A stretch of DNA of 64,000 bases from the NCBI GenBank assembly GCA_947447985.1, contig CANFLX010000002.1:62001-126000 (forward strand). Direction: 5' to 3'. This DNA comes from Comamonadaceae bacterium. Its GTDB lineage: Bacteria > Pseudomonadota > Gammaproteobacteria > Burkholderiales > Burkholderiaceae_C. Shown here one piece after another: positions 1,437 through 46,906 of the stretch; the stretch's first letter is position 1; every line of letters starts with the position of its first letter. The position numbers and the translations under genes are program-made. Under the pieces are notes generated by a model. That model was not told the DNA's origin and made no database searches. It was given only the letters and a program-made list of their open reading frames with translations.

Positions 1437-1463
1437 GAATCGGCAGCAAGGGAAAAACATTGA
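1437..1463 (-). promoter_or_regulatory. Putative sigma28 (FliA) promoter of the carbonic anhydrase-like gene
   Basis: Read on the minus strand: -35 TCAATGTT (1463-1456), 11-base spacer, -10 GCCGATTC (1444-1437). The -10 box equals that before flaG. Expected transcription start is near 1430, giving a leader of about 45 bases to the ATG at 1386. Confidence 0.7.
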
Positions 1464-1467
1464 GCGC

Positions 1468-2340
1468 TCATTGAGTGCCCCGGAACGACATGCCGCTCCC
1501 CGTGTCGTCGGTCACGATTATCTCCAAGCTTTTGACCCCGCTTGGCGCGGTATGGATGAAGGCAATCCCCGTCAATCTCATCGGCGGGCCGGCCGTCGGA
1601 TTGCGCAGGCAATTTGCAGCCGCGCCAATGTCCGCCGACGCCGCAAAGTAAGGGTTTGTGCTTGCATTGGCCGCTGGAGTGAGGGTCAGAGCAATCGAGG
1701 TACAGGCGCCAAAGGCGGTGAGCGCCGTGGTCGAAGCGTGAGGCGTCTCGGTCAGGCTCAGAGAGGTATTGCTGAGATTGGAGCCGTCCAGTCCGTCAGC
1801 CCAGGTCCCGGTCCAGGTTCCTTGCGCGCTGGCAGTGGTTTCCATCTTGCTTGCAGTGAACTGTGGGATGGTATTCAGTGCCGGGATGTAAAAAATCTCA
1901 GACAAGCCCAAGGTGTGCGCTAACGCAGTCGTTCCGGTGGCTGTCGCGCTGCCCGATAAAAGTGTGCCGGGGGATTGGAAGGACCTCATCGTTACGGTCG
2001 ATGCGCTCGTTAACACCGGCGGCTGCAGGCTGCCGGTATAAATGATGGGGGGGGCGTAGCGGTCGCCCACTTGCAGCAGCATATAGAGGTGCAGGTCTGG
2101 CGTGATGAAGCTCACAAACTGACTGGCACTTCCCACGACGGTGCCCTGGTAGGCCCCCGCCAAGACCAGGCTGGGCGCTACGCCGCCACCAGACCCACCG
2201 GGGTTTTGCCCCGCGTCATTGTTAGCTGCGGGGCTGGAGGTCTGGCCACCACAGGACATCAAAAGGGCTACGGCCAGACCGCAGGCCGCAATGCAGCCCC
2301 AGGCGCGCCCGCGAATCACTGATGGCAAAAAGCCCTTCAT
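1468..2340 (-). CDS. Putative lipoprotein of unknown function
   Basis: 290 aa from the ATG at 2340. The N-terminus has a short Arg-containing segment, a hydrophobic stretch and a lipobox ending LMSC, followed by a Gly/Ser/Asn linker, so it is a predicted lipoprotein. The rest is Thr/Ser/Ala-rich and looks like a beta-rich exported domain; I do not recognise a family. This start is chosen because it overlaps the stop of the upstream gene (ATGA) and begins a clean lipoprotein signal; the frame stays open further upstream without a better start. It is the last gene of the fli run that includes fliJ. A flagellar role is possible but unsupported by sequence. Confidence 0.72.
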   Translation of the reverse strand: MKGFLPSVIRGRAWGCIAACGLAVALLMSCGGQTSSPAANNDAGQNPGGSGGGVAPSLVLAGAYQGTVVGSASQFVSFITPDLHLYMLLQVGDRYAPPIIYTGSLQPPVLTSASTVTMRSFQSPGTLLSGSATATGTTALAHTLGLSEIFYIPALNTIPQFTASKMETTASAQGTWTGTWADGLDGSNLSNTSLSLTETPHASTTALTAFGACTSIALTLTPAANASTNPYFAASADIGAAANCLRNPTAGPPMRLTGIAFIHTAPSGVKSLEIIVTDDTGSGMSFRGTQ

Positions 2341-3074
2341 GCAGCCACCCATCCCGCTTGCAGCCAATGGCAGTAGCCCCGACGGTAAGGCCAGGCGATA
2401 TGGTGTACCGGTGTGCCGCCAGGAAACACCTGGTCGGTTAAATGGTCCAGCCAGTTGCCTTGCGCCTGCAGTTGGCGGCTGAAACGGCTGAGGGCCACGG
2501 CACGGGCAGGCGCTTTGCCCTCGGGTGTGCGTGCCGGTTGCAGGCTGCATTGCATGGCGGGCAAGCCTGTGCCAAGGCGGGCCAGTGTGCAGCCGGAAAA
2601 AGCATCGTGAACGCTGCCCCAGCGCCTGCCATGCAAGCGTTTGGCGATGCGGGCAATGCGCTCGCTGGCCTCATCCACCGAGGGTGTGTGAAAGCGCAAT
2701 TGCCCCAGCACATTGTCCAGAAGCACCAGCGCGCGCGGGTGCGCTTGCAGCACGGTGTCGAGTTGCGTCAAGGCGTCTGCGGTATGGCAATGCAGTGTGG
2801 TGCCGGATGCGCGCAGGGCTGCGCCATGGCGCCTGCGAAACAGCGGAGCGGCCCAGCGGTCCACATCAAAGGTGGTGACGCGGGCAAAGCCCTGTAGCCA
2901 GTTGCTGGACATCATCCAGCCTGCGCTGGCGCCCAAAATAACAAGTTCGTCCGACTTGGAAGGTGCTGCAGGCATCTCCCGCAGCCACAGTGCAATGTCG
3001 GCGCAGGTGTCGGTCCACTGTGTTTGGTGGCGCCACGCATGCCAATGCCAAAAAAGGCCGCCCGAGGGGTTCAT
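2337..3074 (-). CDS. Conserved protein of unknown function, possibly Rossmann-like
   Basis: 245 aa, no signal peptide or membrane segment. An N-terminal stretch (LVILGASAGWM, then FDVD about 20 residues later) resembles the first two strands of a SAM-dependent methyltransferase fold, and VLLDNVLGQL resembles a motif-IV strand. This is only a pattern resemblance. It overlaps fliJ by four bases (ATGA at 3074) and the downstream lipoprotein in the same way, so the three are translationally coupled. The position after fliJ is where many flagellar operons carry fliK, but this protein is not FliK-like. Confidence 0.65.
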   Translation of the reverse strand: MNPSGGLFWHWHAWRHQTQWTDTCADIALWLREMPAAPSKSDELVILGASAGWMMSSNWLQGFARVTTFDVDRWAAPLFRRRHGAALRASGTTLHCHTADALTQLDTVLQAHPRALVLLDNVLGQLRFHTPSVDEASERIARIAKRLHGRRWGSVHDAFSGCTLARLGTGLPAMQCSLQPARTPEGKAPARAVALSRFSRQLQAQGNWLDHLTDQVFPGGTPVHHIAWPYRRGYCHWLQAGWVAA

Positions 3075-3514
3075 GCAGCCCGCGCCTGGTTGAATTGCAG
3101 CATCCCGAGCTCGTCCATGCTTTTTTGCTCGCGCTGGTTGGTGTATTTCTGCACGGCCAGGCGGTCGTTCTCGGTCAGCGTCTTCATTTTCAGTCGCTCC
3201 GCTTCGGCCAACACCATCTGGTGGGCCAGCGTTTGCAAATGCAGCTTCGAGGTGTTGATGTCGCGCTCCACCCGCTCGCGCAGGGTGAGCAATTGCGACA
3301 TGAACTGGCGCTGGTTCATCGCATCAGACATGCCTTTGGAGGTGTCTGCCGCCGCTGCTTTTGCGTGGTACTCCTCGTAGAGTTGCTCCAAACGCTGTTG
3401 GCTTGCCACCAAGGAATCCAGCAGGTTTTGGGCTTGCGCCGTGTCGGCGCGCAGCTTGGTAATTTTTTGTTCGGCCCGTCCTTCCAGGGCAGACCAGCAG
3501 GCGCGGACTTTCAT
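3071..3514 (-). CDS. fliJ: Flagellar export chaperone FliJ
   Basis: 147 aa, the usual FliJ length. Almost entirely predicted alpha-helical coiled coil rich in Gln, Glu, Arg and Leu, as in FliJ, the stalk that links the FliI ATPase ring to the FlhA export gate and escorts chaperones. The ATG at 3514 (MKVRACW) is preferred over an upstream in-frame start at 3556, which would extend into fliI; with 3514 the gap to the fliI stop is five bases. It is directly downstream of fliI, the standard order. Confidence 0.88.
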   Translation of the reverse strand: MKVRACWSALEGRAEQKITKLRADTAQAQNLLDSLVASQQRLEQLYEEYHAKAAAADTSKGMSDAMNQRQFMSQLLTLRERVERDINTSKLHLQTLAHQMVLAEAERLKMKTLTENDRLAVQKYTNQREQKSMDELGMLQFNQARAA

Positions 3515-3519
3515 GGTGC

Positions 3520-6881: not shown

Positions 6882-6908
6882 GGTGGTACTCGTTAGGAAT
6901 GAGGCCGA

Positions 6909-8771: not shown

Positions 8772-8829
8772 AGGAGGAGTCTTTCAGCGCGGAGATAGAG
8801 AAGTATTCGGGGGGTCAGCAGCCGTCGGC

Positions 8830-10630: not shown

Positions 10631-10671
10631 ACAGGTTTTGGACAAAGGGGTGTCAGGTATGAACACCCTTC

Positions 10672-11010: not shown

Positions 11011-11037
11011 TCAAGGTTTCAGCGCTGCGACCGATCC
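11011..11037 (+). promoter_or_regulatory. Putative sigma28 promoter of the 1417-aa repeat protein gene
   Basis: -35 TCAAGGTT (11011-11018), 11-base spacer, -10 ACCGATCC (11030-11037). The predicted start of transcription (about 11043-11045) falls almost on the ATG at 11046. Confidence 0.65.
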
Positions 11038-11045: not shown

Positions 11046-14000
11046 ATGATCTACGTTCAAAGCGCCAGCGCTACCGCCAACTACTACTTGCAGAGCGCCA
11101 GCAGCTCGGCGGTGGATGTTGCATCCGCTGTCTCGGCGCTGCAAGTCAACCCGCGCGCGCGGTTCGTGATCCAGGACTCTGCCGCCAACGTTGAAAAGTA
11201 CATTGATACGCTGAAAAAGATCAGCAACAACATCAGCAGCATCACTTTGACCGACACGTCGCCCACCGTGATGCGCGTGTCGTCTGCGCAATTGCTGCAA
11301 AACCCCGCCTTGTTTGCCAAAATGAACGTGGGGGGCGCGTCCAATCCAGTGAGCCTGAGCGTCTCCGATGTGTTGTCCAAAGACGCTGCAGCGGTAGGGG
11401 CCAACAGCAAAGTCAGTCAGTTTTCTGTGAAGGACACCGCCGCGAACATTTCCGCGATGTGGAGCGGTGTGAACAGTGGCGTAAGCAAACTGGGCAACGT
11501 GCAACTGACCGACCCTGCAAATCCACTGAAAATTACATTTGCCCAGTACAGCAACGCAAAAGACACACTGCTGACGCATTTCAAGGGCACCTACGCCTTC
11601 AGCCTGAGCGGCGCAAAAGTGGCTGACGCCTTAACGACCGCCTCGGATGATCGGGTTACCGCACTGGCTATTACCGACCACGCGCAAGCCATTGCGAATG
11701 CCCTGGACGATCTAAAAAATTTGGGTCTCAAAGTAAAGATGGTGACCACGGACGACACCAGTGTGTTGAAGGTCTCAGCGGAGAAGCTGCGGACCGACAG
11801 TGCCGTGATTGGCAAACTCTACAAGGGCTACCAACTCGCCGTTTTTAATGTCGATCTCAGTACCGCGGCGAGATTGAAGTCAAACCAGAAGGTTGTTTCT
11901 TTGGATATTGCGGACACTGCCGACAATATCTCCGCCAATTTGGGCTTTTTGAACAAGCTGGGCGCGTCGCTGCATTCCTTGACCGTGACCGATGCTGCCG
12001 AATTGAATATTGGCGCAGCGGACTTCTTTCGCAACGGTCAGGCCCTGGCCAAGATTGCAGACCCGGTAACCGGCCACAACACCTACCAGCTCAATATTTT
12101 GGACGCCCACGCCGTGGACGCCAAAGTGCTGCAAAGCAATAGCCATGTGCATACCATCGCCGTCAAAGACAGCAGCGCTGCGATTGGACAAAACTTTGAC
12201 GACCTCAACAGCAATTCGCTAGTGACGGGCATCAAACAGAGCGGCCCAGCGGCCCCCCTGAGCATCACCGTAGACCAATTCGACAATGACACCAATGCGC
12301 TGGCATTGCTCAGAGACAGCCATTCTTTCGCTGTGCGTGGCGTCACTGCGGCCCGTGCAAAAGCACTGCTTGCGGACAGAGCCACCAACAACGTGGCATC
12401 CGTGTCAGTGACCGACACCCGTGCCAACCTGTATGACAAGCTGAATGATTTGACTGGCCTGGGCAAATCCCTGACCAGCATCGTGCAGGACACGACGGGG
12501 CAAACCAGCGCACAACAGGCATTTCAACTCACCGCCAGCGAGTGGATGAAACACATCGGAACCCTGTCCAAGATTGTGGGCGGTTATGGCGTCAACGTTA
12601 GCAGCGTGAGTGCCACCAAGGCCATGGCCTTGGCCACAGACCTGCGTGTGCGCTCGATTCAGGTCACAGACACGGGTGCTGCCATTGCGGCAAACCTGGA
12701 TGCCTTGCAGGCGGTGGGCTCCAAGCTTTCGGGTATCGCGCAAACCGATTCGACGGCACTTCAAATTTCGGGTGCGCAATACGCAGCCAATACCAGCACC
12801 TTGGGCAAGCTGGCCGACAGCTACACCTTGTCAGTCTCCAAAGCCAGTGCCAGCCAGGTCAGCGCCTTGGCGGGCTCTGCCCATGTTCAGTCCATTGGCG
12901 TGGTCGACACAGTCGCCCATATCGCATCCAACCTGGCCGCTATTCAAACCGCAGCCACCGCAGCGGGTGGACCGGCCCTCACCGTCGCGTTGAGTGGCCC
13001 ATCGGCTGCCTTCACCTTGAGCAAGACACAACTGAGTGACTATGCGGACGCATTGAACACCATCCAAGGCAATTACGCCGTCAAGGTCACCGGCTTGTCC
13101 GTGACAGACGCAGTCGGTCTGGCCGGTAACGGGCACGTGGTGGGCATGGCGGTCAACGCGTCTTCCACGGAGCTTTCCGATGTAAGCCAGCTCGGCCAGC
13201 TTGGCGCATTGGGCGGCAAGCTCAGCAGCATTGCCCAAAGCGATGCGGGCACGCCACTGACGCTGGCGCAAGAGGACTGGCTCAGCAACCGGGCAATTTT
13301 GGCCAAGGCGCAGGGCTACAGCGTTGCACTCACGGGCGTGAAGGCGGCCAGTGCGGACAACCTGCTGACCAACAACCCGCAGGTGGTGTCCGTGGCGGTC
13401 ACCGATACCGCTGCGGAAATTTCACGCAGCTTCAACCAACTGGCCGCCCTGGGCGCGTCCCTGCAGGGTATTGCACAGGCCGCGGGCGACGCTGGGAATC
13501 TGCAGCTGTCGATGGCGCAGTGGACCGCTGGAGAGAGCACCGTAGAAAAGATAAGCGGTGACTACCACGTCGACATATCGCGCGCGGGTGCCGAACAGGC
13601 CCAGTCGCTGGTAGCCAACGACAAGATCGCAAGCGTGGGCGTGCTGGCAAGCGCCTTGGATGTATCGACCCAGCTTGCCGATTTAATGGCCAACAGCAAG
13701 GTCTCGTCGCTGCAATTGTCCGATCCCGTGAACCCGATCGCCATGTCGATGGAACAACTGGTGAACGACGGGCAGGGTAACAATCTGCTGGGAAAAATTC
13801 AGGGCGGCTACCGTCTGGCGTTGAGCGGCGTGGCTGTCTCCGACCTCAGCGCAGCCAGGGCTCAGGGACATGTGGCAAGCATGGAAGTCAGTGGAACGGC
13901 TGGCCAAATCCAAGCGGGCTTGCCCGCACTCATGGGCGCAGGTCCTCGCCTGACGTCGCTGACGCTGACCGGAGCCGATCCGAGCGTGGTGCTGGATTAC

Positions 14001-15299
14001 AGCGACTTCCAAAAATACAACAGCGTGCTGGGCATGATCAAGCAGCCGTTTAGTTTGGTGGTGAACAAGGTCACCGCCAGTGGCGCTGAGGCGCTGGCCC
14101 AAAACACGGTGTTCAATGTCAGCATGGGCGTGCGTGATACCGCGGCCAACATTTCGACCAATCTGAATACCTTGGCAAATCTGGGCGCGCAAATCACGAC
14201 CCTTCAAACCACGGAGGCTTCTCCCGTTTTGAATGTCAGCGCGGCACAGTTTTCAACTGCGCAGGGCACCCTCAACAAGATCAAAGCCTCTGACGGGACG
14301 TCCAACTACCAACTGGCGGTGACCGGTGGCGACTCCAATTTTGTCCGCGGCGTGCTGGCGGATGCTGCTGCACTGGCCCATGTGCAAAGCCTGGATTTCG
14401 CCGATTCGGCCTTGAATATTGCAAACAATTTTGACTTGTTGCAAAGCAGCAAAGTAACCGCAGTGCGTTTAACGACCAGCGCGCCGGTACTGACCCTCAA
14501 CGCAAGCCAATACGCACTGTCAGCCTCCCTGGCCAAGATCAAGACATCTTTTGGCTTGAATGTCACCGGCGCCGCCGTCAACGCTGCGGCCACGCTGCAA
14601 GCAGACCAACGCGTGAATGGCTTTGAAATCTCAGCCTCAGCCGCTCAAATTGGCGCTTCGCTCTATGACCTGCTGGGCTTGAGCAAACTCACCCACCTGG
14701 ACATCACCCAAAGTGCGGGCCCGGCGGCCCTGATGTCCATCATCGCAGACCAATACCTGGCGGTGCAGGACAGCCTGGGCAAGGTGCGCGGCAATTACGC
14801 GCTCAATGTGACCAACGTATCCACGGCTGCGCTGGACAGTATTGCGGGCCACAACAATGTTGCAGGCGTGCAGGTCAGCGGAACAAGTGCAGAGGTCGCA
14901 AGTGCCTGGGACGCCTTGGTGGCCTTGGGCGATCAGTTGACAGGCGTCCAGTTCACGGGCGCAGACCCACTGGCCATCACCTTGGAGCAATGGAACCAGT
15001 CAGCAAGCGCGCTGAGCAAACTGCCCGCAGGCAAAGCCCTGGCGCTGCTGGATGTAGCGCCCGATGAGGCGACCAATGCCGCAGCGTACAGCAACGTCAC
15101 TACCGTGGCCGTCAAGGGCACCGCCAGCCAGGTGGCGACTGCCTTTGACGATCTGGTGGCACTGGGCGCCCAGTTGGATGACATTGAATTGACCGACCCC
15201 GCCTCGCCCCTGCTCTTGACCCAAAGCCAAGCCGATGCAGGCGCGGCCGTGCTTGCCAAGATCAATGGCGGGTTCGACCTGCAAATCCAGAGTGCCTAA
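11046..15299 (+). CDS. Giant cysteine-free repeat protein (DTAANIxxNLDxL repeats)
   Basis: 1417 aa. Built almost wholly of about 16 degenerate repeats of roughly 80-90 residues. Each unit has a strand/turn VxSVxVTDTAA, a helix IxxNLDxLxxLGxxL, a strand TSIxxTD and a tail LxLSxxQYxxxxxxLxKIxGxYxLxVxxV. There is no cysteine, signal peptide or membrane segment. Similar repeats occur in very large secreted surface proteins of proteobacteria. The end has no classic RTX nonapeptides, so the export route is open: type I secretion or the flagellar type III exporter. The sigma28 promoter and position inside the flagellar locus point to late flagellar expression. No Shine-Dalgarno precedes the ATG. Confidence 0.85.
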   Translation: MIYVQSASATANYYLQSASSSAVDVASAVSALQVNPRARFVIQDSAANVEKYIDTLKKISNNISSITLTDTSPTVMRVSSAQLLQNPALFAKMNVGGASNPVSLSVSDVLSKDAAAVGANSKVSQFSVKDTAANISAMWSGVNSGVSKLGNVQLTDPANPLKITFAQYSNAKDTLLTHFKGTYAFSLSGAKVADALTTASDDRVTALAITDHAQAIANALDDLKNLGLKVKMVTTDDTSVLKVSAEKLRTDSAVIGKLYKGYQLAVFNVDLSTAARLKSNQKVVSLDIADTADNISANLGFLNKLGASLHSLTVTDAAELNIGAADFFRNGQALAKIADPVTGHNTYQLNILDAHAVDAKVLQSNSHVHTIAVKDSSAAIGQNFDDLNSNSLVTGIKQSGPAAPLSITVDQFDNDTNALALLRDSHSFAVRGVTAARAKALLADRATNNVASVSVTDTRANLYDKLNDLTGLGKSLTSIVQDTTGQTSAQQAFQLTASEWMKHIGTLSKIVGGYGVNVSSVSATKAMALATDLRVRSIQVTDTGAAIAANLDALQAVGSKLSGIAQTDSTALQISGAQYAANTSTLGKLADSYTLSVSKASASQVSALAGSAHVQSIGVVDTVAHIASNLAAIQTAATAAGGPALTVALSGPSAAFTLSKTQLSDYADALNTIQGNYAVKVTGLSVTDAVGLAGNGHVVGMAVNASSTELSDVSQLGQLGALGGKLSSIAQSDAGTPLTLAQEDWLSNRAILAKAQGYSVALTGVKAASADNLLTNNPQVVSVAVTDTAAEISRSFNQLAALGASLQGIAQAAGDAGNLQLSMAQWTAGESTVEKISGDYHVDISRAGAEQAQSLVANDKIASVGVLASALDVSTQLADLMANSKVSSLQLSDPVNPIAMSMEQLVNDGQGNNLLGKIQGGYRLALSGVAVSDLSAARAQGHVASMEVSGTAGQIQAGLPALMGAGPRLTSLTLTGADPSVVLDYSDFQKYNSVLGMIKQPFSLVVNKVTASGAEALAQNTVFNVSMGVRDTAANISTNLNTLANLGAQITTLQTTEASPVLNVSAAQFSTAQGTLNKIKASDGTSNYQLAVTGGDSNFVRGVLADAAALAHVQSLDFADSALNIANNFDLLQSSKVTAVRLTTSAPVLTLNASQYALSASLAKIKTSFGLNVTGAAVNAAATLQADQRVNGFEISASAAQIGASLYDLLGLSKLTHLDITQSAGPAALMSIIADQYLAVQDSLGKVRGNYALNVTNVSTAALDSIAGHNNVAGVQVSGTSAEVASAWDALVALGDQLTGVQFTGADPLAITLEQWNQSASALSKLPAGKALALLDVAPDEATNAAAYSNVTTVAVKGTASQVATAFDDLVALGAQLDDIELTDPASPLLLTQSQADAGAAVLAKINGGFDLQIQSA

Positions 15300-15385: not shown

Positions 15386-15412
15386 TCAAGAAAGAATTTT
15401 TCGAGCCGACTC
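15386..15412 (+). promoter_or_regulatory. Putative upstream sigma28 promoter (P1) of the 1617-aa repeat protein gene
   Basis: -35 TCAAGAAA (15386-15393), 11 bases, -10 GCCGACTC (15405-15412). Weaker than the downstream copy: the usual GAT of the -10 box reads GAC. Confidence 0.4.
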
Positions 15413-15466: not shown

Positions 15467-15493
15467 TCAAGCTTTACAAAGGGATGCCGATTC
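15467..15493 (+). promoter_or_regulatory. Putative main sigma28 promoter (P2) of the 1617-aa repeat protein gene
   Basis: -35 TCAAGCTT (15467-15474), 11 bases, -10 GCCGATTC (15486-15493). Predicted start near 15500 gives a leader of about 50 bases with a GGAG Shine-Dalgarno before the ATG at 15551. The 250-base gap 15300-15550 holds these two promoters; I see no clear terminator for the upstream gene in it. Confidence 0.72.
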
Positions 15494-15550: not shown

Positions 15551-18500
15551 ATGAGTTCAGTAAGTGCAGTTAGTTCCTCAACTCCCATCATTCCGGTTTT
15601 TAAGCCCACGAAGGTTGAAAAACTGGACCAGATCGGTGGTTTGTTTCAAACCTCTCTGCCTGACTCCACGGACGACAACAGCGTCGCCTTTGTCTACTCC
15701 AAGACCACGGTCGCCAAGGATGCGGCCTTGCCCAAGGCTGCCATTTTTCTGAAAAACGCCGATGGCTCTTACTTTTCGGTCGACCTGCACCGGGATGCCG
15801 ACACCAAGGTGACTGACAAAGTGAGCATGGTGGCCACGAGCAGCACCATTGATTTGTACATTTACAACCCCGACGCCACCGGGTCTGCTGAAAAATACTC
15901 TTTCGACGCGACTGGCAAGATGACCGGTGATGGCCCCGCCACGCTGGGTGCCATGGAGGTTTCTTCCGCAGAAATCAGCACCAAGCGCGACCTCGATGGC
16001 AATGGCGGTATCGGCGCCAATTTGGATAAAACCGCCAACGGCCCCGGCATGTTGGATGCCACCGGCGGCATGTACCAGGTGAACGTCTTGGGCCAAAACG
16101 TGTTGGTCGTGGGCAATGCGCTGGAAAAGGCGAAGTCTATCGACGTGTCTGCCAACGCACTGCGCAATGTTGACGGCAGCGCATGGGCACCCGAAACCGA
16201 ATTTGCCAGCTACCGTGCGGTTTCCACGGTGGCCGCTGACAAGAGCGTTTCCTGGACCGTCTACGGCACCACGGCCGTTGACGAAAGCGGCGCTGGCGGC
16301 GATGTGCATAAATTCACCTTCAAGGCCGCAGACGACAAAAAGGGCTTCGTTTTGGATGGCGAAGAGGTGACCCTGAGCGCCAGCCAGTTGGCGACGGCTG
16401 AGAAGACGAGCAAGCGCGACCTTAACGCAGACGGAACTTTTGGCGTCAAAGTGCAAACGGACGCTGTGGACGCCAAGGGCGGCTTGTACTCGGGCAGCAT
16501 TTTGGGTCAAGATTTTTATCTCATTGGCACGGGACTCAAAACCGCCGCCAAAGCCGATGCCGCGCAGGACCTCTCCGGTTCCTTGTTGAACGGCGAAGGC
16601 GAAGCCTGGGTCAAGCCTGAGGGCTACACGATTTCTGCACTGGTGAAAAACAAGGCGGACGCCGATCACCCGTATTCCATGTACGCCTACAAATCTGCAA
16701 GCGGCTCGGACCCTGAGGCAGCGGACTATGTTGCCGCCGACAAAAACGACGTGTTGCGTTTTGATTTTGACGTGACTGCCGGCGGCAACTACAAAGTCAC
16801 CGATGCCACCGCAGACGGTGTCGCGATGACGGCAAGCGACCTTGCCAAGGCGGAAAAAACCACAACACGTGACTTGAACCAAGACGCCGTTTTCGGCGTC
16901 ACGATTCAACCCGGTGCAGTGGACGCAACCGGTGGCCTGTACCAGGCGACCGCCTTGGGCAACAGCTTTTTGGTGGTTGGCAAAAGCCTGGTGTCTTCTG
17001 CCGCCAAGCCCATGGATTTGTCGTCCGCACTGCTGACCACCGATGGTGAGGCGTGGAAACCCGACGATGTTGCAAACATCAGCAACCAGCTCAAAATTGT
17101 GACTGAAGTGGGGCAGGACAAAGCGGTTACCGGCTACAGCGTTTATGTCAAAGAAGACGCGGGAAGCTTTGCCAAATACAGCTTTGGTGCAGACTTCAAA
17201 CAGACGGGCGAGCGCACTGAATTGACGCAAGAGGACTTGGCGACCGCCGAAAAAACCAATAACCGTGATTTGAGCGGTGACAACAAATTTGGCGTGATCT
17301 TGACCGGCTCGCCAGACGCCAAGGGCGGTCTGTACCAAGGCCACTTTGAGAGCCAGGACAATGTTTTCATCCGCAGCGACGCCAAACTGGCCCTGGGCGG
17401 CTTGGTGGCCAGCAAGGCCGTTGACATGAGCAACGCCCTGAAAACCGAAGAAGGTTACTGGGACGTGGAATCGGGTTACAACATCACGGCCGCCTACACC
17501 GAGGGCACAGGTGAGGCACAGACCTACAACGTGATCGCGGCCAACGCCCAGGATGTGTCGGATGTGCGCAAATACACCTTCAACGCCGCGACCAACATGC
17601 TCGACACCGAGCACTCCGGCGACATGTCTTTGATCGATCTGGCAGCGGCCGAAAAAGCCCAAAAACGCGATCTGAATGGCGACAGCGTTGTTGCCGTCAA
17701 AGTCTCAGCAACCCTGGACAAAGTCGGTGGCTTGTTCCAAGTCCAATCGGCCACTAAAAACTATCTGGCCATCAGTTCCACGGCCGTCAAGGACCTGAGC
17801 ACCGCCATTTTGGACTCTGATGGCAAAGCCTGGGCCGTTCCCGGTAACAACGCCAGTGTCGTCTTGTCAAAACAGGGGGATAGCTACAAGATTTACACCA
17901 AGAGCACGGATGCCACGCCCACCTACAACGAATATGCCGTATCGGCTGACTTCAAGTATGTGGAGGACAGTGCAAAAACATTAAGCCTGACTGATTTGGC
18001 AGACGCCGAAAAGACCAGCGGCCGCGACATCAATGGCGACCGTGCGATTGGTGCGACCGTGTCCAAGGTCATTGACAAGACCGGCCTCTACGAAGCCACC
18101 ATTGACAACCAGAAAATGGTACTTTTCTCGTCGACCAACCCTGGCAAGAGCACCGCGCTGAGCGACAAGGTATTGCTGTCCAGCGACGAAACCAGCCCCT
18201 GGGCGGCGGGTTCGGACTACAGCCTGCGCAGCGTGGTGAAAAACGAGGACGACACCATCCAGGTCTATGCCACCAAAGTTCAGGACGGTAAAGATGTGAC
18301 CAGCCGGTTCACCTTCACTGCCGACCGTGTTTTGTCGGAACAAGAGGACCTGACGGCTGACCAGCTCGCAACGGCTGAAAAGACCCTGGGCCGTGACCTG
18401 AACGCTGACAAAGCGGTGGGCCTGGCGGTGACCGGGGTTGAAGACAAGGTTGGCGGCTTGTACAAAGCGTCGGTCATGGGCCAGGACTTCTATGTGTTGG

Positions 18501-20404
18501 GCGTCAAGGGTTTGAAGACCGGAACAAGCACTGCCAGTGCCATTGACCTGTCCAGAGCCTTGCTCGATACCGAGGGCAACGCCTGGAAGCTGGACGACGG
18601 CTTTAAGGTCGGTGGCGTGATCACCACCAAAAACGCCGATGGCGACATCACAAGCTACGACCTGTACACCTACAAAAAGACCGGCTCTGATGTGACGGAT
18701 GTCAAGAAGACCAGTTGGGACGCCAATATGAACTACATGGATTCGGTGGCAGCCGACCCTGTGGCGCTGGTGGATGTGGAAGCCAAAAACGCCCGTGATT
18801 TGAGCGGTGATGGCACGGTGGGTTTCCGCAAAGTGGGAACCGACGATGCGCAATACCTGGGTGTTACTTCGGCCCGCGTGGTGGGCAATGACTTGAAGTT
18901 CTGGCTTGCAGGCAGTGACCTCAAACCCGGCTCACCTTCCAAGCCCCTGACCATCAAGGACGCACTGCTCAGTGACGATGGCACTGCGCCCTGGCAAATC
19001 GACGAGGGATACAAGATCAAGGCCGTCCTGGATGGCACAGGCGTCAACACGGACAAGCGCTATGTCTATGCCACCAACACGGAGAACAATTCCGTGCTGC
19101 GGTACAGCTTTAGCAAGGTCGATGGCAAGAGCGCGGGTGCCGGCGAGTCCGTGAACAGCATCGATCTGGCCAAGCTGGAAACTGACTTGAAGAAGGACTT
19201 GAACGGCGACACCAAGGTGGGTGTTCTGTCGGTTACCGACGTCAAAGACGACACACGCTCTACCGGCCTGGTGAAAGCAAGCTTGTTGGGACAAGACTTT
19301 TTTGTGGTCAATAAAGTGCCCACAGGCACCAAGAACATCAACCTGACTTCGGCGCTGTTGAACGCTGACGGTAGCGCGTGGACAAAACCCAGCGACTTCG
19401 CAATCAAGGGTGTCTACCAGCCCGACGCAAACACAACCGAGGTGTATGGCACGGGGGCCAACGACCAGTTGCAGCGCTACAAGTTCACCCCGACGATGGC
19501 GAATGATGTTGCCACCGGCAGCTGGACGGTGAGTGAGCCCACCGATTTGGATCCCTTGGCCATCACGGGAACCACACTGGCCAAAGACGAAGCGTCGGCC
19601 AAAAAAGACCTCAACGGCGACGGTGCGATTGGTTTCAAGGTCGGCGCGGGCATCGCCTCGCAATCCAACGGTTGGTCCGTAGGCAAGGCGGGCGTCGGCA
19701 CGCCGCCAATCGATGCACCCGACACCGACCAGGTCTACATCGTGGGCAAAAACCTGGCCAAGATGGGCACGGTAGCGACCAACCTGGCCAACTCGGCGGC
19801 CTTGCAATCTACGGGTGAGGACGGCAATTTGGCCTATTGGAAGCCTGACGCAGGGTTTGTGGTCAATTCGATCCAGCAGCCCGTTGAGACACCCGGCACC
19901 GTCAATCTGTTCGCTTCCAAGGTGGATGCAGACAGCGGCAACACGACCTATATGAAGTACGTGTTTACGCAAGGGCAAGACGCAGACAAGACTTGGACCT
20001 TGGACTCCGCCAGCTCGTCGGCAACGCCTTTGACATCGAAAGACTTCGTGCAAACCGAGATCGATGCCAAGCGGGATTTGAATGGCGACGGTGCCGTGGG
20101 CCTCAAAGCGGGTGACACCGTGGTCTCTGGATTGATCAAGGCCAGCATTGACAACCAGGAGTTCCTCATGGTCGCCAAATCTCTGACTTCGGGCACCTCG
20201 TCCAAGCCGCTGGGCTTTAACGCCCTGTTGCAAAAGTCGGACGGCACGGCCTGGACACCGGATGAGGGCGTCACAGCGACCTCTTGGACGGCCCTCGTGG
20301 CTCCTCTGGCGGAGGGCGTGCCCGCCGACACCAAGTTTGCACTGGTCAAGAGTGACAGCTCGACCTCGTACTTCGGCGCCGACTACAAGGAACTGACCGC
20401 CTGA
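15551..20404 (+). CDS. Giant cysteine-free repeat protein with DLNGDG calcium-site-like motifs
   Basis: 1617 aa, about 12 repeats of roughly 130 residues. Each unit runs: (K/R)RDLNGDGxxG, a GGLYxAxxxGQDFxVVG strand pair, DLSxALLxxDGxAWxPxxGY, strands ending in YxF, then LxxxDLAxAEK leading into the next RDLNGD. The DxNxDGxxG loops resemble calcium-binding (dockerin/EF-like) loops, and the layout recalls the Trp-rich repeat of some cyanobacterial surface proteins; this is resemblance only. No cysteine, Sec signal or membrane segment. Two sigma28-like promoters precede it and a strong terminator follows, so it is its own late-flagellar transcription unit. Likely an extracellular polymer or filament-associated protein (inference). 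Confidence 0.86.
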   Translation: MSSVSAVSSSTPIIPVFKPTKVEKLDQIGGLFQTSLPDSTDDNSVAFVYSKTTVAKDAALPKAAIFLKNADGSYFSVDLHRDADTKVTDKVSMVATSSTIDLYIYNPDATGSAEKYSFDATGKMTGDGPATLGAMEVSSAEISTKRDLDGNGGIGANLDKTANGPGMLDATGGMYQVNVLGQNVLVVGNALEKAKSIDVSANALRNVDGSAWAPETEFASYRAVSTVAADKSVSWTVYGTTAVDESGAGGDVHKFTFKAADDKKGFVLDGEEVTLSASQLATAEKTSKRDLNADGTFGVKVQTDAVDAKGGLYSGSILGQDFYLIGTGLKTAAKADAAQDLSGSLLNGEGEAWVKPEGYTISALVKNKADADHPYSMYAYKSASGSDPEAADYVAADKNDVLRFDFDVTAGGNYKVTDATADGVAMTASDLAKAEKTTTRDLNQDAVFGVTIQPGAVDATGGLYQATALGNSFLVVGKSLVSSAAKPMDLSSALLTTDGEAWKPDDVANISNQLKIVTEVGQDKAVTGYSVYVKEDAGSFAKYSFGADFKQTGERTELTQEDLATAEKTNNRDLSGDNKFGVILTGSPDAKGGLYQGHFESQDNVFIRSDAKLALGGLVASKAVDMSNALKTEEGYWDVESGYNITAAYTEGTGEAQTYNVIAANAQDVSDVRKYTFNAATNMLDTEHSGDMSLIDLAAAEKAQKRDLNGDSVVAVKVSATLDKVGGLFQVQSATKNYLAISSTAVKDLSTAILDSDGKAWAVPGNNASVVLSKQGDSYKIYTKSTDATPTYNEYAVSADFKYVEDSAKTLSLTDLADAEKTSGRDINGDRAIGATVSKVIDKTGLYEATIDNQKMVLFSSTNPGKSTALSDKVLLSSDETSPWAAGSDYSLRSVVKNEDDTIQVYATKVQDGKDVTSRFTFTADRVLSEQEDLTADQLATAEKTLGRDLNADKAVGLAVTGVEDKVGGLYKASVMGQDFYVLGVKGLKTGTSTASAIDLSRALLDTEGNAWKLDDGFKVGGVITTKNADGDITSYDLYTYKKTGSDVTDVKKTSWDANMNYMDSVAADPVALVDVEAKNARDLSGDGTVGFRKVGTDDAQYLGVTSARVVGNDLKFWLAGSDLKPGSPSKPLTIKDALLSDDGTAPWQIDEGYKIKAVLDGTGVNTDKRYVYATNTENNSVLRYSFSKVDGKSAGAGESVNSIDLAKLETDLKKDLNGDTKVGVLSVTDVKDDTRSTGLVKASLLGQDFFVVNKVPTGTKNINLTSALLNADGSAWTKPSDFAIKGVYQPDANTTEVYGTGANDQLQRYKFTPTMANDVATGSWTVSEPTDLDPLAITGTTLAKDEASAKKDLNGDGAIGFKVGAGIASQSNGWSVGKAGVGTPPIDAPDTDQVYIVGKNLAKMGTVATNLANSAALQSTGEDGNLAYWKPDAGFVVNSIQQPVETPGTVNLFASKVDADSGNTTYMKYVFTQGQDADKTWTLDSASSSATPLTSKDFVQTEIDAKRDLNGDGAVGLKAGDTVVSGLIKASIDNQEFLMVAKSLTSGTSSKPLGFNALLQKSDGTAWTPDEGVTATSWTALVAPLAEGVPADTKFALVKSDSSTSYFGADYKELTA

Positions 20405-20587: not shown

Positions 20588-21826
20588 ATGGCCACTTTGC
20601 ACCCCACACGCCGCATTCAGGCGCTTTTGCCTCTGTATGTGCCGCGTTTTTCTTGTATCGGGCCCGCGTGCGGGGACAGTTGCTGCGCCGGGTGGACGGT
20701 GTCGATTGATAAGAAAACCTTTAACGCCTACCGGAAAACCACCAACCCGGCGCTGGCAGATCGGCTGGAAACGCACGTCAAGCGCGTCCGCAGTCAGGCT
20801 TCGGACGGCAACTATGCCCACATGGAGCTGGTGCCAAGCACCGGCGAATGCCCGATGGTTGAGGACAAGCTGTGCGCGGTGCAAAAAGAGTTGGGCGAGG
20901 ACAAGTTGTCCAACACCTGCTTCACCTATCCCCGCGCAAACCATGAGGCGGGGGGGGTGTACCACCAGGCGCTCACGCTCTCGTGCCCTGAAGCGGCCCG
21001 TTTGGCCCTGCTTGCCGATGATGCGTTTGATTTTGCGGAGCAGGCCATCCATGTTCGCCCCGATACCTTGCAGCATCTCAAACCCCAGGCGGGGCTTTCC
21101 TTGGCGCAAATGAACGAAGTGCGTTTTTTTTGCATTCAAATCCTGAAGACAGAAGGTTTGCAGGTGTGGCAGAAGCTGGCCATCGTCGGTTTGCTGTGTG
21201 AGTCCTTGAGTGAGACCTTAAAAAACGGCATGCCGCGGCGTGTGTCCGACATTCTGCAAGACACCCAAGACTTGATCAGCAGCGGACAAACCGCGGTCAT
21301 GTTTGACAGCATGCAGCCGCAATACGCCATCCAGGCCGTCACCTTTACCCTCTTGTGGCAGGCCAAAAGCCAATACATCCGCCCACAACACAGGCCTGTT
21401 TACGAAGCCATGGCAGAAGGCCTGGGTGCCGATGAGAGTGGCCGGGTCTCAGAGGAGCAGTTGGTGGCACGCTACGCGCAAGGCGTAGCCCGTTTGCCCC
21501 TGGCACTTGCGCCTGCGCCAGCGCTCTTGCAAAACTATGTGTTGAACGAAATGCTTCGTGAGAACTTTCCTTTTGGCCAGGGCGGCGCCAACCCGATGGA
21601 GCACTACCTTCGCCTGGTCACCCGGTTCGGCCTGGTGCGCTTCATGCTGGCGGTGCAGTGCACTGAAGACCAGCCACTGCCCACGCCCGAGTGGCTGGCG
21701 CATACGGTGCAGGTGTTTGCACGGCGTTTTCAACATGACAAGGCATTTGCGACCCAAGTGGACAACAGCTTTAAGAATTCAGGCTGGGACCAGCTGGACA
21801 AAGTGCTCAGGTTTTTGAAGGCCTGA
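20588..21826 (+). CDS. fliB: Flagellin lysine-N-methylase FliB
   Basis: 412 aa, close to the Salmonella FliB length. The N-terminal cysteine cluster CIGPACGDSCCAGW (residues 23-36) and later CPM, LCAVQ, NTCFTYPR cysteines are the hallmark of the family. FliB methylates the side-chain amine of surface lysines of flagellin, which in Salmonella promotes adhesion. It faces fliC convergently across a shared terminator, so the substrate gene is its neighbour. Cytoplasmic, no signal peptide. Confidence 0.88.
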   Translation: MATLHPTRRIQALLPLYVPRFSCIGPACGDSCCAGWTVSIDKKTFNAYRKTTNPALADRLETHVKRVRSQASDGNYAHMELVPSTGECPMVEDKLCAVQKELGEDKLSNTCFTYPRANHEAGGVYHQALTLSCPEAARLALLADDAFDFAEQAIHVRPDTLQHLKPQAGLSLAQMNEVRFFCIQILKTEGLQVWQKLAIVGLLCESLSETLKNGMPRRVSDILQDTQDLISSGQTAVMFDSMQPQYAIQAVTFTLLWQAKSQYIRPQHRPVYEAMAEGLGADESGRVSEEQLVARYAQGVARLPLALAPAPALLQNYVLNEMLRENFPFGQGGANPMEHYLRLVTRFGLVRFMLAVQCTEDQPLPTPEWLAHTVQVFARRFQHDKAFATQVDNSFKNSGWDQLDKVLRFLKA

Positions 21827-21937: not shown

Positions 21938-23119
21938 TTACTTCAGCAAGGCCAGCACGCTTTGTTGCGACTGGTTAGCCTGTGCCAACATCGCGGTCGA
22001 TGCCTGGGCGATGATCTGGGTGCGAGCCAGTTCGGTCGATGCCTTGGCATAGTCGGTGTCTTGCACCCGGCTGCGAGACGCCGAGGTGTTTTGCGACACG
22101 TTGGCCAGGTTGTCCGCAGCGTAGGTCAGGCGGTTGATCACTGCACCCAGGCTCGAGCGCTGGCTGTTGACGTTGGTGATTGCGGTGTCCAGACCGCTGA
22201 TCGCGTTAGAGGCGTCGCCTGGCAGCTTGATGTTCAGTGCATCCAAGCTGGCCAAGCCGCCGGTGGTGACCTTGGCGGTTGCGCTAAATCCATTTGCCAC
22301 ATCGTCGTTACCGGTCAAAACGATGGTGTTATCAGCGCCGGACACAGTCAAACCAGCAAATGTTGCACCCAATGCAGTTACCACGTCTGCTGCCAAGGCC
22401 TTCTGTCCATCTGAATCTGCGCCGCCATCCACGGCTGCCTTGTAGGCGGCTGCCTGGTCTTTGCTGATGGTGAATTGAAATTGCTGGTTGTTGGCGTTGA
22501 TGGTGATCACATCGCCCTCTTTGAAACCACTGCCCGTGATCGTGGTCGTAGCGGCTTCAGCTTTGCCGTCACCTGTAGTTGCGGTATCAACCTTGATCGT
22601 GCTTTCACCAAAGGACATTTGGTTGATCGTGGTCTCGATCGTTTGGCCCTTGTTGGCGCCCACTTGGAAAGAGAACTTTCCGTCGCTGGCAGCGCCACCC
22701 GTGCCGTCGAGCACCGACATACCGTTCCACTGGGTGTTTTTGGTGATGCGGTTAATTTCAGTCTTGAGTTGTGTGAACTCGTCGTTCAAAGCGCCGCGGT
22801 CGCCTGCCACGTTGGTGTCGGAAGCCGATTGCACGGCCAGTTCACGCATACGCTGCATCATGTCGCCCACAGCGACCAAAGCGCCGTCAGCGGTTTGCAG
22901 CATGGAGATGGCGTCGTTGGAGTTGCGAACTGCTTGGTCCAGACCCTTGATTTGCGAGGTCATTTTGGAGGCGATGGCCAGGCCAGCTGCATCGTCTTTT
23001 GCACCGTTGATGCGCAGACCGGTGGACAGTTGCTGCATAGCTTTGGACTGTGCAAGGGTGTTAGACGCCATGGCGTTTTGTGCAATGAGCGAGCTAACGT
23101 TGGTGTTGATGACTGACAT
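21938..23119 (-). CDS. fliC: Flagellin FliC
   Basis: 393 aa. Conserved N-terminal D0/D1 (MSVINTNVSSLIAQNA, LSTGLRINGAKDDAAGLAIA, MQRMRELAVQSA, the region recognised by TLR5 in many species) and C-terminal D1/D0 (SRIQ-type ASRSRVQDTDYA, QASTAMLAQANQSQQSVLALL) flank a variable middle of about 120 residues. It is the main filament subunit, exported by the flagellar type III system. A strong AGGAGAA Shine-Dalgarno precedes the ATG and a sigma28 promoter lies at 23186-23212. Only one flagellin gene is present in this window. Confidence 0.98.
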   Translation of the reverse strand: MSVINTNVSSLIAQNAMASNTLAQSKAMQQLSTGLRINGAKDDAAGLAIASKMTSQIKGLDQAVRNSNDAISMLQTADGALVAVGDMMQRMRELAVQSASDTNVAGDRGALNDEFTQLKTEINRITKNTQWNGMSVLDGTGGAASDGKFSFQVGANKGQTIETTINQMSFGESTIKVDTATTGDGKAEAATTTITGSGFKEGDVITINANNQQFQFTISKDQAAAYKAAVDGGADSDGQKALAADVVTALGATFAGLTVSGADNTIVLTGNDDVANGFSATAKVTTGGLASLDALNIKLPGDASNAISGLDTAITNVNSQRSSLGAVINRLTYAADNLANVSQNTSASRSRVQDTDYAKASTELARTQIIAQASTAMLAQANQSQQSVLALLK

Positions 23120-23185: not shown

Positions 23186-23212
23186 GAATCGGTGAATTAA
23201 TTGGAAACTTGA
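23186..23212 (-). promoter_or_regulatory. Putative sigma28 promoter of fliC
   Basis: On the minus strand -35 TCAAGTTT (23212-23205), 11 bases, -10 ACCGATTC (23193-23186). Transcription start near 23179 gives a leader of about 60 bases. This is the reference site for the pattern because fliC is the classic FliA target. Confidence 0.85.
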
Positions 23213-23231: not shown

Positions 23232-23615
23232 TCATACTTTTGCGTTCAACAAGAGTCCTTTCATGTCGTCGATGCTGTGGGCCATCTGGATCACCACATC
23301 GGTAGGAATCTTGCGCACGACTTCGCCGGTCTGTGCATTCGTCACGATCACCACGGGGCGATCCAAACTTTTGTCAATAGAAAAGCCCAGGCCTGTCTTC
23401 TTGGAAGCCAGTTGGTCGTTCAAGGACCGCACCGCCTCTTGCAGGTTGCGCTTGGCTTCGGCCGCGTCGTACTGAATCTCAACCGGTTTGGGCGCGCTCA
23501 CCTTGGGTGCGCTGGGTTGGTCGGCCACGGTGCTGCGTCCCACCACCGCTGCAGGTGCAGGAGTGACGGCAGGCGCGCGGGAGGCGGCGCTGGCACTTTG
23601 AATCTCAGAAGTCAT
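23232..23615 (-). CDS. flaG: Flagellar protein FlaG
   Basis: 127 aa from the ATG at 23615. The Ala/Pro-rich N-terminal half is variable; the C-terminal domain (LNDQLASKKTGLGFSIDKSL, VVIVTNAQTGEVVRKIP) is the FlaG signature. FlaG limits filament length in several polar-flagellated bacteria. The start is chosen because an upstream in-frame extension would enter the region between the gene and its sigma28 promoter without a better start. Confidence 0.92.
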   Translation of the reverse strand: MTSEIQSASAASRAPAVTPAPAAVVGRSTVADQPSAPKVSAPKPVEIQYDAAEAKRNLQEAVRSLNDQLASKKTGLGFSIDKSLDRPVVIVTNAQTGEVVRKIPTDVVIQMAHSIDDMKGLLLNAKV

Positions 23616-23706: not shown

Positions 23707-23733
23707 GAATCGGCACTTACAAAGAAATCTTGA
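23707..23733 (-). promoter_or_regulatory. Putative sigma28 promoter of flaG
   Basis: On the minus strand -35 TCAAGATT (23733-23726), 11 bases, -10 GCCGATTC (23714-23707). It gives flaG a promoter separate from fliD. Confidence 0.8.
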
Positions 23734-26263: not shown

Positions 26264-26290
26264 TGATCGGCACGAAGGTGCAGATCTTGA
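26264..26290 (-). promoter_or_regulatory. Putative sigma28 promoter of fliD
   Basis: On the minus strand -35 TCAAGATC (26290-26283), 11 bases, -10 GCCGATCA (26271-26264). It lies in the 74-base gap between flgL and fliD, about 38 bases from the ATG. Confidence 0.72.
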
Positions 26291-41231: not shown

Positions 41232-41284
41232 CTAAAGGGGTGGGGCTGAATGTCCTGTCACTTTTTCAACACATAAGAACCTTC

Positions 41285-42118: not shown

Positions 42119-42149
42119 GAAATTTCTTTCCTTTTTTTGCAATCTGCCC

Positions 42150-42176
42150 TCAAGTTTTCCCTGCTTAGTCCGATTC
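42150..42176 (+). promoter_or_regulatory. Putative sigma28 promoter of flgM
   Basis: -35 TCAAGTTT (42150-42157), 11 bases, -10 TCCGATTC (42169-42176). Start near 42183, 45 bases before the ATG. FlgM expressed from its own sigma factor's promoter is the usual feedback arrangement. Confidence 0.8.
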
Positions 42177-42227
42177 TGTGAGTAATAAACCCTTTTGACC
42201 GACTGAAGTTACCAAAGTGAGCCCACC

Positions 42228-42569
42228 ATGACCGACGCCATCAACCCCCTTTCCCGGCAGGTACCGTCAGACAACCTGGCCCGCAAGGCCTTGGAAAAGT
42301 CGACGAAAGCGGCGACATTGGCACCGACCTCCGTCGGTGTGGCCGCCACGCCGGAGACCGAAATCGCCGCCAACAAGTCTGTTGCCGCCGCCAAGGGTGC
42401 GGATGTCGCTGGCTTTAGCGCCATCAAGGCACGTCTCAAGCAAGAGCCCGACTTTGACCGCACCAAGGTCGACTCGATCAAGCATGCGATCGAAAACGGC
42501 CAGTACCCCTTGAATCCCCGGCGTATCGCCGAGAGTTTTGTCGCCCTGGAGCAACTGATCAGCCATTGA
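42228..42569 (+). CDS. flgM: Anti-sigma28 factor FlgM
   Basis: 113 aa. The C-terminal half (FSAIKARLKQEPDFDRTKVDSIKHAIENGQYPLNPRRIAESFVALEQL) is the FliA-binding FlgM signature, preceded by a disordered Ala/Thr-rich N-terminus. It holds FliA inactive until it is exported after hook completion. Confidence 0.97.
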   Translation: MTDAINPLSRQVPSDNLARKALEKSTKAATLAPTSVGVAATPETEIAANKSVAAAKGADVAGFSAIKARLKQEPDFDRTKVDSIKHAIENGQYPLNPRRIAESFVALEQLISH

Positions 42570-42591
42570 GCGCTGTGAGCGAAGCCGCACT

Positions 42592-42981: not shown

Positions 42982-42990
42982 AAAGCGTCG
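42972..42990. terminator. Hairpin containing both stop codons of convergent flgN and the FhlB-like gene
   Basis: Perfect eight-base stem CGACGCTT / AAGCGTCG around an AAA loop. The TAA stops of flgN (42979-42981) and of the FhlB-like gene (42978-42980 on the other strand) lie in the loop region. No long T-run, so termination strength is uncertain. Confidence 0.6.
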
Positions 42991-45105: not shown

Positions 45106-45145
45106 GGGAATTCCTGAAAAGAAAGGGGGCCGGGGATGCGCGGAC

Positions 45146-46318: not shown

Positions 46319-46325
46319 GGCGGCT

Positions 46326-46850
46326 TTATTTGTTTTTGCTTGCCAACTGTCCCAGGTAGAGCATGCGCAGGTCTTGCACCGTGGCCTTGTCCAGCGTCAG
46401 TGTGGTCTCGTAGGTGTCGTCGCCCGAGGGGGTGATGCTCACCAGCGTGGCGCCATAAATCACGCCTTCGACCCGGCTGCGGAAGGTGTCGTTTTGCACC
46501 ACCATGTCGGCCACCGTGGCAGTGGCGTCCATGCGCAGGCCATAGACCTGTTCGGTCAGCGATCGGTAGGCATCGAGCTTGGCCGCCCGGATGGCCAAGA
46601 GGCGCTGTTGCGCGGGCAGGCGGTGGTTTTGCACACTGATGACTGCGTAACCGGTGGCGGTGAGCGACTCGCGCCGCTCCACCAGCGGCAGACTGGCCAT
46701 GGGAATTTCGACATTGGCGGAGGTGCTAGGGGTGCTGATGGGGGCAGCAGGCGCGGCGTTCAAGCCCGACATCGTGGGCAAGGCCTGGCAGGCGCACAGC
46801 AGTGCTGCGGACAGGGAAAGTGCCAGTTTGAGGGGGGGCAAGCGGTTCAT
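46326..46850 (-). CDS. flgP: FlgP-like lipoprotein (LPP20 family)
   Basis: 174 aa from the ATG at 46850. Lipoprotein signal (SLSAALLCACQ), then the LPP20 core (AVISVQNHRLPAQQRLLAIRAAKLDAYRSLTEQVYGLRMDATATVADM). FlgP forms outer-membrane-associated basal disks (Campylobacter) or the outer H ring (Vibrio). The longer open frame upstream (to 47960) is antisense-frame noise over the Sel1 gene. A sigma28 promoter lies 30 bases upstream, and the operon continues through FlgT-like, FimV-like, fliK and FhlB-like genes. Confidence 0.85.
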   Translation of the reverse strand: MNRLPPLKLALSLSAALLCACQALPTMSGLNAAPAAPISTPSTSANVEIPMASLPLVERRESLTATGYAVISVQNHRLPAQQRLLAIRAAKLDAYRSLTEQVYGLRMDATATVADMVVQNDTFRSRVEGVIYGATLVSITPSGDDTYETTLTLDKATVQDLRMLYLGQLASKNK

Positions 46851-46879
46851 AGCGGTGTCCTTAGAGGTAGTCCATAGCA

Positions 46880-46906
46880 GTATCGGCAGCAAGGGGCAAA
46901 GCTTGA
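46880..46906 (-). promoter_or_regulatory. Putative sigma28 promoter of flgP and following genes
   Basis: On the minus strand -35 TCAAGCTT (46906-46899), 11 bases, -10 GCCGATAC (46887-46880). The spacer end CCTTGCT directly before GCCGAT is shared with the carbonic anhydrase promoter. Start near 46873. Confidence 0.75.

Follow-up and report, generated by a model that had tools for sequence, protein, structure and literature searches.

Completion of the flagellar hook is followed by export of FlgM, which frees the sigma factor FliA (sigma28). The FliA promoters of Escherichia coli include those of flgKL, flgMN, fliC and fliDST, and the flgKL promoter is tabulated as TCAAG-N14-GCCGATAA (PMC4183435). 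In Vibrio cholerae, FrhA is known as the flagellum-regulated hemagglutinin (PMC6890996, PMC10865825). Expression of frhA is reported as lowered in strain O395 without FlrA, FlrBC or FliA, and as raised in strain A1552 without FlrA in late stationary phase (PMC6890996). Here, we analyzed a 64,000-nucleotide (nt) stretch from a Comamonadaceae bacterium (the window; C2:62001-126000 of a 2.85 Mb draft genome with 86 contigs, 99.6% complete, 2.4% contamination), which contains a flagellar gene cluster. Judged from sequence, FliA-class late promoters very probably serve fliC, flaG, fliD, flgM and flgP in this cluster, together with a carbonic anhydrase gene and two genes for giant proteins of 1417 and 1617 amino acids (aa). 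The grammar of these promoters is known and their kind is ordinary; what they appear to govern here is new, and the surprising part is the carbonic anhydrase as an apparently conserved member of a flagellar class. The genome encodes both FliA (NF005413, 224.4 bits against an NCBI family cut-off of 201) and FlgM (PF04316).

The first-pass annotation of the window had listed nine sites in one sigma28 grammar. All nine 27-mers lie where it placed them, each on the strand facing the named gene and each with an 11-base spacer:

1437..1463, minus strand: predicted sigma28-type promoter of the carbonic anhydrase gene, TCAATGTT-N11-GCCGATTC, 50 nt before the ATG (matrix, orthologue conservation)
11011..11037, plus strand: predicted sigma28-type promoter of the 1417-aa gene, 8 nt before the ATG (matrix; equal distance in orthologue G171:C134)
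15386..15412, plus strand: possible weak upstream site of the 1617-aa gene, at chance level (matrix score 12.25, rank 10)
15467..15493, plus strand: predicted sigma28-type promoter of the 1617-aa gene, 0 mismatches, 57 nt before the ATG (matrix)
23186..23212, minus strand: predicted sigma28-type promoter of fliC (matrix)
23707..23733, minus strand: predicted sigma28-type promoter of flaG, 0 mismatches (matrix)
26264..26290, minus strand: predicted sigma28-type promoter of fliD, the weakest of the eight supported sites (matrix)
42150..42176, plus strand: predicted sigma28-type promoter of flgM (matrix)
46880..46906, minus strand: predicted sigma28-type promoter of flgP (matrix)

In a search of both strands for TCAAGNTT-N11-GCCGATTC, these nine outrank every other position of the window (12-15 of 15 matches; next best 11). 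A C directly precedes TCAA in all nine, a feature absent from the first-pass annotation. That annotation had also proposed a weight matrix built from known flagellar sites, and we trained one on nine sites that were flagellar a priori, namely those of fliC, flaG, fliD, flgM and flgP in the window and four outside it. Eight of the nine claimed sites take the top eight ranks in the window, with scores of about 18.4-25.9 against 14.0 for the next position, five of these eight having belonged to the training set. The three untrained ones scored 19.3 (carbonic anhydrase), 19.1 (1417-aa gene) and 25.4 (1617-aa gene, site at 15467). In a leave-one-out ranking, the flagellar sites came 4-5 except for fliD (13.2, rank 9), the carbonic anhydrase site 6, that of the 1417-aa gene 7, and those of the 1617-aa gene 2 (second site) and 10 (first site).

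In 200 dinucleotide shuffles of the window, positions scoring at least 18 averaged 0.09 per shuffle (maximum 2), compared with the eight observed; the best score per shuffle had a median of 14.4 and a maximum of 20.7, and positions scoring at least 12.2 averaged 2.5 per shuffle. Pairing the half-sites at spacers of 5-18 bases gave scores of at least 18 eight times at spacer 11, once at spacer 15 and never at the other 12 spacers. Judged by score and spacer against the FliA-type arrangement, with TAAAG or TCAAG as the -35 element, GCCGATNN as the -10 element and N11 between the 8-mers, the same eight sites agree with it and the 15386 site does not. The box ends 8-91 nt ahead of the start codon at the eight sites; at 15386 the distance is 138 nt. 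Eight of the nine sites are thus beyond chance, whereas the one at 15386 is not distinguishable from it.

As a genome-wide control we used the reversed pattern. The first-pass annotation would have been undermined by equally many good matches in random coding sequence; instead, at up to two mismatches the genome holds 16 matches against 3 for the control, and at up to one mismatch 10 against 0. Seven of the 16 are window sites (carbonic anhydrase, 1417-aa gene, 1617-aa gene, fliC, flaG, flgM and flgP), and four precede fliS, a second fliS, a second flgM and a second flgP, the second copies lying on contigs C30 and C32, so that flagellar genes or claimed new members lie behind 11 of the 16. Four others overlap longer reading frames without a recognised flagellar gene and one lies at a contig end. 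What could still be said for chance is that up to three mismatches, the class to which both the 15386 and the fliD sites belong, there are 81 matches against 63 for the control, which is too noisy to use. Given eight sites scoring at least 18, a single spacer, the correct strand and place, and conservation in relatives, we regard it as extremely improbable that the sites are chance matches.

Across 80 genomes of the genus (own included), up to one mismatch was allowed and 92 sites were found against 8 control matches; 82 of these sites lie in the 79 other genomes. We compared the surroundings of 80 of the 82 with 21 reference proteins and read the remaining two, in G015:C42, separately. The downstream gene is flgP at 17 of the 80 sites, flgM at 12, flaG or fliC at 14, fliS at 4 and the carbonic anhydrase at 1, which makes 48. 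By reading of the open reading frames (ORFs), a giant repeat ORF follows at three more sites, a COQ7 gene at two and a 131-aa protein at three (look-alikes). Because the site precedes flgP, flgM, flaG or fliC, and fliS in relatives, the grammar reads as a sigma28 signature of this lineage, as far as sequence comparison can tell, and the flgKL promoter of E. coli shows the same form. The COQ7-type gene, for ubiquinone biosynthesis, has its sigma28-like site 90 nt before the start in two genomes (L199 and L268; Pfam, run on L268, confirmed the family there).

The gene that the first site faces is the following:

73..1386, minus strand: alpha-type carbonic anhydrase, 437 aa (PF00194, 141.7 bits with a cut-off of 27, E 4e-41, residues 229-436)

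Its product has an N-terminal membrane anchor, a probable coiled coil and a His-rich linker, all three read from the sequence, followed by the carbonic anhydrase domain. The histidines of QFHFH and VVHFVH (H303, H305 and H322) are invariant in an alignment of 23 orthologues, and we take them to be the three zinc-binding histidines. Because of the membrane anchor and the enzyme family, the protein is probably periplasmic and anchored in the inner membrane. Its relatives were found mostly in metagenome genomes labelled Comamonadaceae, Burkholderiales, Limnohabitans, Rhodoferax or Polaromonas.

The site is kept upstream of this gene. In a first set of 23 orthologues (own included; L072-L077, with four split matches, left out), we scanned 300 nt upstream on the coding strand. 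The best match starts 77-130 nt before the ATG in all 23, the second-best reaches at most 6.5, and 18 of the 23 best matches score at least 14. In the alignment of the upstream DNA, CCGA is invariant and the flanks diverge. A second set, which overlaps the first, comprises 49 loci, with L083, L105, L123, L125, L126 and L129 (incomplete) and L133-L157 (carbonic anhydrase half only) left out. For the window-type protein, a site scoring at least 14 is present in 29 of 30 loci; upstream of the gene lies fliI, fliJ or the next gene of that run in 27 of the 30, L090 has only a lipoprotein gene there, and L081 and L103 have no flank from which to judge the neighbourhood. The other clade of the enzyme, with 19 loci, has different surroundings, as none of 17 flagellar-cluster genes of the window matched within the locus. 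Fifteen of these 19 loci, among them L121 of Limnohabitans sp. Jir61, each have a single copy of TAAAG-N15-(A/G)CCGAT with this spacing, beginning 55-111 nt ahead of the gene start. Since its spacing is one base longer and the N11 matrix scores it 2-11, we counted this form as a variant and not as a match. Seven of the 19 loci have fliA about 10 kb away (4 downstream, 3 upstream), and 43 of the 49 genomes carrying scored loci have fliA above the cut-off.

The enzyme also follows one kind of flagellum. By score, the genus (genomes G000-G071 and G169-G199) has two fliF types (346-390 and 267-290 bits, with a 56-bit gap), and genome G007 has both. Of the 31 genomes with the lower-scoring type, 29 have the N-terminal domain of the carbonic anhydrase, compared with 0 of the 47 that have only the other type; this comparison leaves out nine genomes with fragments (domain in four) and 16 without fliF (domain in six). 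Owing to the kinship of the genomes, the Fisher value of this comparison overstates their independence. An alternative would be that FliA does read the site but that the enzyme is a general CO2-handling hitch-hiker with other promoters, its link to swimming being incidental. Such a role would fit the position downstream of the fliE-J run in 27 of the 49 loci, where read-through could express the gene, and the fact that alpha-carbonic anhydrases are common, with matches in 78 of 120 relatives, many in the carbonic anhydrase domain alone. It fits poorly with a second clade that has other neighbours yet mostly keeps a sigma28-type site, and with an N-terminal domain confined to one flagellar lineage. 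We therefore hold the hitch-hiker possible but lean against it and prefer an enzyme belonging to the flagellar class. Our literature search returned, in the portions of text accessible, no paper linking a carbonic anhydrase to FliA or to a flagellar class. The corresponding portions of PMC3948606, PMC5493296, PMC3409859 and PMC5438104 name other carbonic anhydrases without a flagellar link, and PMC3948606 lists a Vibrio fischeri 'can' transposon mutant as a growth defect.

The other new members are two neighbouring genes on the plus strand:

11046..15299, plus strand: 1417-aa protein without cysteine, 17 repeats of about 82 aa (repeat analysis)
15551..20404, plus strand: 1617-aa protein without cysteine, 11 repeats beginning like RDLNGD (repeat analysis)

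No Pfam or NCBIfam family scored over its cut-off for the 1417-aa protein, and a single-sequence search gave one weak relative in 119 other genomes. Of 102 other genomes of the genus, four yielded a relative when searched with a profile of its repeats: G171 (1418 aa, 66% identical), G015 (1248 aa), G018 (718 aa) and, marginally, G031. All four species with E values up to 1.1e-13, own included, have sites before the gene. The G171 relative, which adjoins a sigma54-activator-like ORF and fliE, has a single site (16.1) at the window's distance of exactly 8 nt from the ATG; those in G015 (25.3, 21.4) and G018 (18.2, 20.4) have two each. Because the box ends only 8 nt before the ATG in both the window and G171, this spacing suggests that the mRNA of the 1417-aa gene is leaderless. 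A two-repeat unit of the protein is predicted to be alpha/beta (predicted local distance difference test score 94), and its best Foldseek match in the PDB has an E value of 0.077, with template modelling scores of at most 0.30 among the matches listed. For the repeats of both giants no PDB match reached E 0.001 (best 0.077 and 0.13), and the predicted repeat of the 1417-aa protein is perhaps a new solenoid. In G015, the relative is followed by a 619-aa M10-like metalloprotease (L190:547-2406), beyond which an ALTTAQ-like ORF lies on the opposite strand (L190 27-479).

Giant genes behind sigma28-type sites recur in relatives with other repeats. In G034, G023 and G041, a transporter-like ORF and an HlyD-like ORF are followed by a sigma28-type site, behind which lies a giant ORF without cysteine; the giants measure at least 3255, 728 and 584 aa, respectively, each being cut short by the end of the sequence stretch. 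The sets of G034 and G023 adjoin a sigma54 activator and the fliE-J run, and no flagellar gene was seen on the contig of the G041 set; in two of the sets, those of G023 and G041, a short ORF of doubtful status overlaps the site. Pfam, run on the G023 set, identified a C39-type ABC transporter, HlyD_3 and ALTTAQ repeats. By analogy with these sets, and with V. cholerae frhA and its dependence on FliA in O395 as precedent, our leading, still tentative idea, held just short of an even balance, is that the window giants are type I secretion substrates, that is, surface adhesins made at the swimming stage. Like FrhA, they appear to be giant repeat proteins with a flagellar-class promoter. A type I transporter lies beside the relatives' giants, but no transporter genes were seen beside those of the window: the G023 transporter has no match in the window's part of C2, and its closest counterpart elsewhere in the genome, at C7:54705, has 36% identity. 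Also against a type I route, the window giants have no Pfam match to an RTX family at E values up to 1 (LapG sites were not searched), G069 (L272) has the same gene set without a site scoring at least 15 directly before the giant, and frhA rises without FlrA in A1552.

The giants could instead be exported by way of the flagellum, to decorate or lengthen it, which we consider less likely. Flagellar export would suit their lack of cysteine, the absence of a signal peptide recognisable by eye, the position of fliB, which separates the 1617-aa gene from fliC, and the arrangement in G015, where about 3 kb separate fliC from the 1248-aa relative. Kinship with flagellin, FliD or FlgE was considered and rejected: the uncorrected matches (best FliD, 21%, E 1.6e-11) do not withstand composition correction, after which those to FliD and FliC vanish or fall to E 0.007 at best. 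The type I transporter beside the relatives' other giants likewise speaks against export through the flagellum.

Several observations weigh against the assignment to FliA-class promoters. The 15386 site is not significant and was dropped as evidence; like the fliD site it has three mismatches, a class in which genome matches barely exceed the control. Contigs C30 and C32, possibly from a co-binned relative, supplied three of the nine training sites. In relatives, 24 of the 80 sites are followed neither by a gene from the reference set of 21 nor by a recurrent one, and the genomes compared are related, so that the counts are not independent. For the carbonic anhydrase, the site has decayed (8.0-12.1) in 5 of the 23 relatives of the first set; L106, where the gene stands beside fliJ, has no site and is the sole exception among the 30 window-type loci; and in the other clade 4 of the 19 loci have no N15 site, three of them with fliA about 10 kb away. 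The marginal relative of the 1417-aa protein in G031 (E 1.5e-5) has no site scoring at least 14. The 1617-aa protein has no homologue in 119 other genomes, so conservation gives it no support. Finally, a site need not mean regulation, because in E. coli 30 of 52 FliA sites are reported within genes, most of them without detectable RNA (PMC4183435). The prediction that the new members are late flagellar genes thus gains from relatives for the carbonic anhydrase and the 1417-aa gene, which keep their site, and gains nothing there for the 1617-aa gene, whose class is assigned solely from the perfect 15467 site and its position.

Our reading starts from what was observed: eight of the sites exceed chance, the genome encodes FliA, relatives keep the site upstream of the carbonic anhydrase and 1417-aa genes, and the enzyme is found alongside one type of flagellum. 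From these we infer that FliA reads the sites, and where the proteins reside and act. When the hook is finished, FlgM would leave the cell and FliA would be freed; together with RNA polymerase it would then most likely read the eight promoters. Three genes not known as members before, one for a carbonic anhydrase and two for giant repeat proteins without cysteine, would be co-read with the late flagellar genes. "Late flagellar gene" here denotes the timing of synthesis and not the building of the flagellum. The carbonic anhydrase would be an accessory of this flagellum that, in swimming cells, acts on periplasmic CO2/bicarbonate and pH, and the giants would be secreted proteins, displayed on the surface or associated with the filament. 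Whether the enzyme serves proton supply or CO2/bicarbonate sensing is speculation. In its strongest form, which we think improbable, one flagellum class would have its own membrane-anchored carbonic anhydrase, switched on only at hook completion. Near the stators it would interconvert CO2 and bicarbonate and in this way feed or buffer the motor protons (a proton antenna), and giant surface proteins would belong to that late class too. Because the enzyme follows one flagellar lineage and keeps its site in two gene neighbourhoods, CO2/bicarbonate or periplasmic pH chemistry is suggested as part of swimming in these freshwater bacteria. The giant repeat genes in the same class would tie the switch to swimming to very large, probably secreted proteins.

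In the rest of the cluster, the fliE-J run occupies 3071-9168 on the minus strand, and a sigma54 activator gene is at 9203-10666; fliF was confirmed within the run, and fliE, fliG-fliJ, flgL and some other flagellar genes in the window presumably bear the right labels. Besides the two giant genes and fliB, the window contains fliC, flaG, fliD, flgK, flgE, flgJ, flgM, flgN and an LPP20-type flgP, and fliA and fliS lie just beyond it (C2:132-133 kb). The genes beside or behind the sites are as follows:

20588..21826, plus strand: fliB, flagellin lysine-N-methylase (NF038110, 219.8 bits, cut-off 85)
21938..23119, minus strand: fliC, flagellin (PF00669, PF00700)
23232..23615, minus strand: flaG, start re-set to MTSEIQ by analogy with relatives (PF03646)
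23752..26226, minus strand: fliD, 824 aa (PF02465, PF07195)
42228..42569, plus strand: flgM, anti-sigma28 factor (PF04316)
46326..46850, minus strand: flgP-like LPP20-family lipoprotein, 174 aa (PF02169, 34.3 bits, cut-off 25.9)

The 174-aa lipoprotein has no NCBIfam match and takes the name flgP from the first-pass annotation; directly upstream of it, an 883-aa protein with 18 Sel1 repeats is encoded at 46999-49650. FlgK (1116 aa, 27241-30591) and FlgE (1142 aa, 34630-38058) are unusually large, as is FliD, and FlgK and FlgE have an inserted module in common (about FlgK 483-679 and FlgE 433-642; 35% identity over 154 aa, composition-corrected E 5e-10). Contigs C30 and C32 (L036, L037) carry a second fliA-fliS-motA and flgM-flgP region. 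Where alignable, it is 75-88% identical in DNA to the genome's own cluster, and other species are 74-86% identical to it. No second fliF was found in the assembly, which has a single one, and the two contigs may belong to a co-binned relative or to a partial second locus.

Compared with known systems, the sites resemble the FliA promoters listed for E. coli in TCAAG or TAAAG, 14 bases and GCCGAT or a near form, and in their place before flgM, fliC and fliD. They differ in having TCAA in nine of nine sites, preceded by C in each, and in a -10 element that ends in TC, CC, CA or AC where that of E. coli ends in AA. Unlike the E. coli set, the genes behind the sites here include flgP, fliS, the carbonic anhydrase and giant repeat genes. 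V. cholerae FrhA, as described in these sources, is likewise a very large adhesin in the last class of a flagellar hierarchy, but it is an RTX adhesin, whereas the window giants match no RTX family and have no transporter in view beside them. With the ALTTAQ-repeat proteins (PF20080) they have in common a giant repeat ORF behind a sigma28-type site, as seen in a relative, and their repeats are unrelated. The carbonic anhydrase has the catalytic domain and zinc-site histidines of bacterial alpha-carbonic anhydrases (PF00194) and differs from them in an N-terminal part of ~215 aa with a membrane anchor and a His-rich linker, a part that is confined to one flagellar lineage in the genus, and in the sigma28-type site before its gene.

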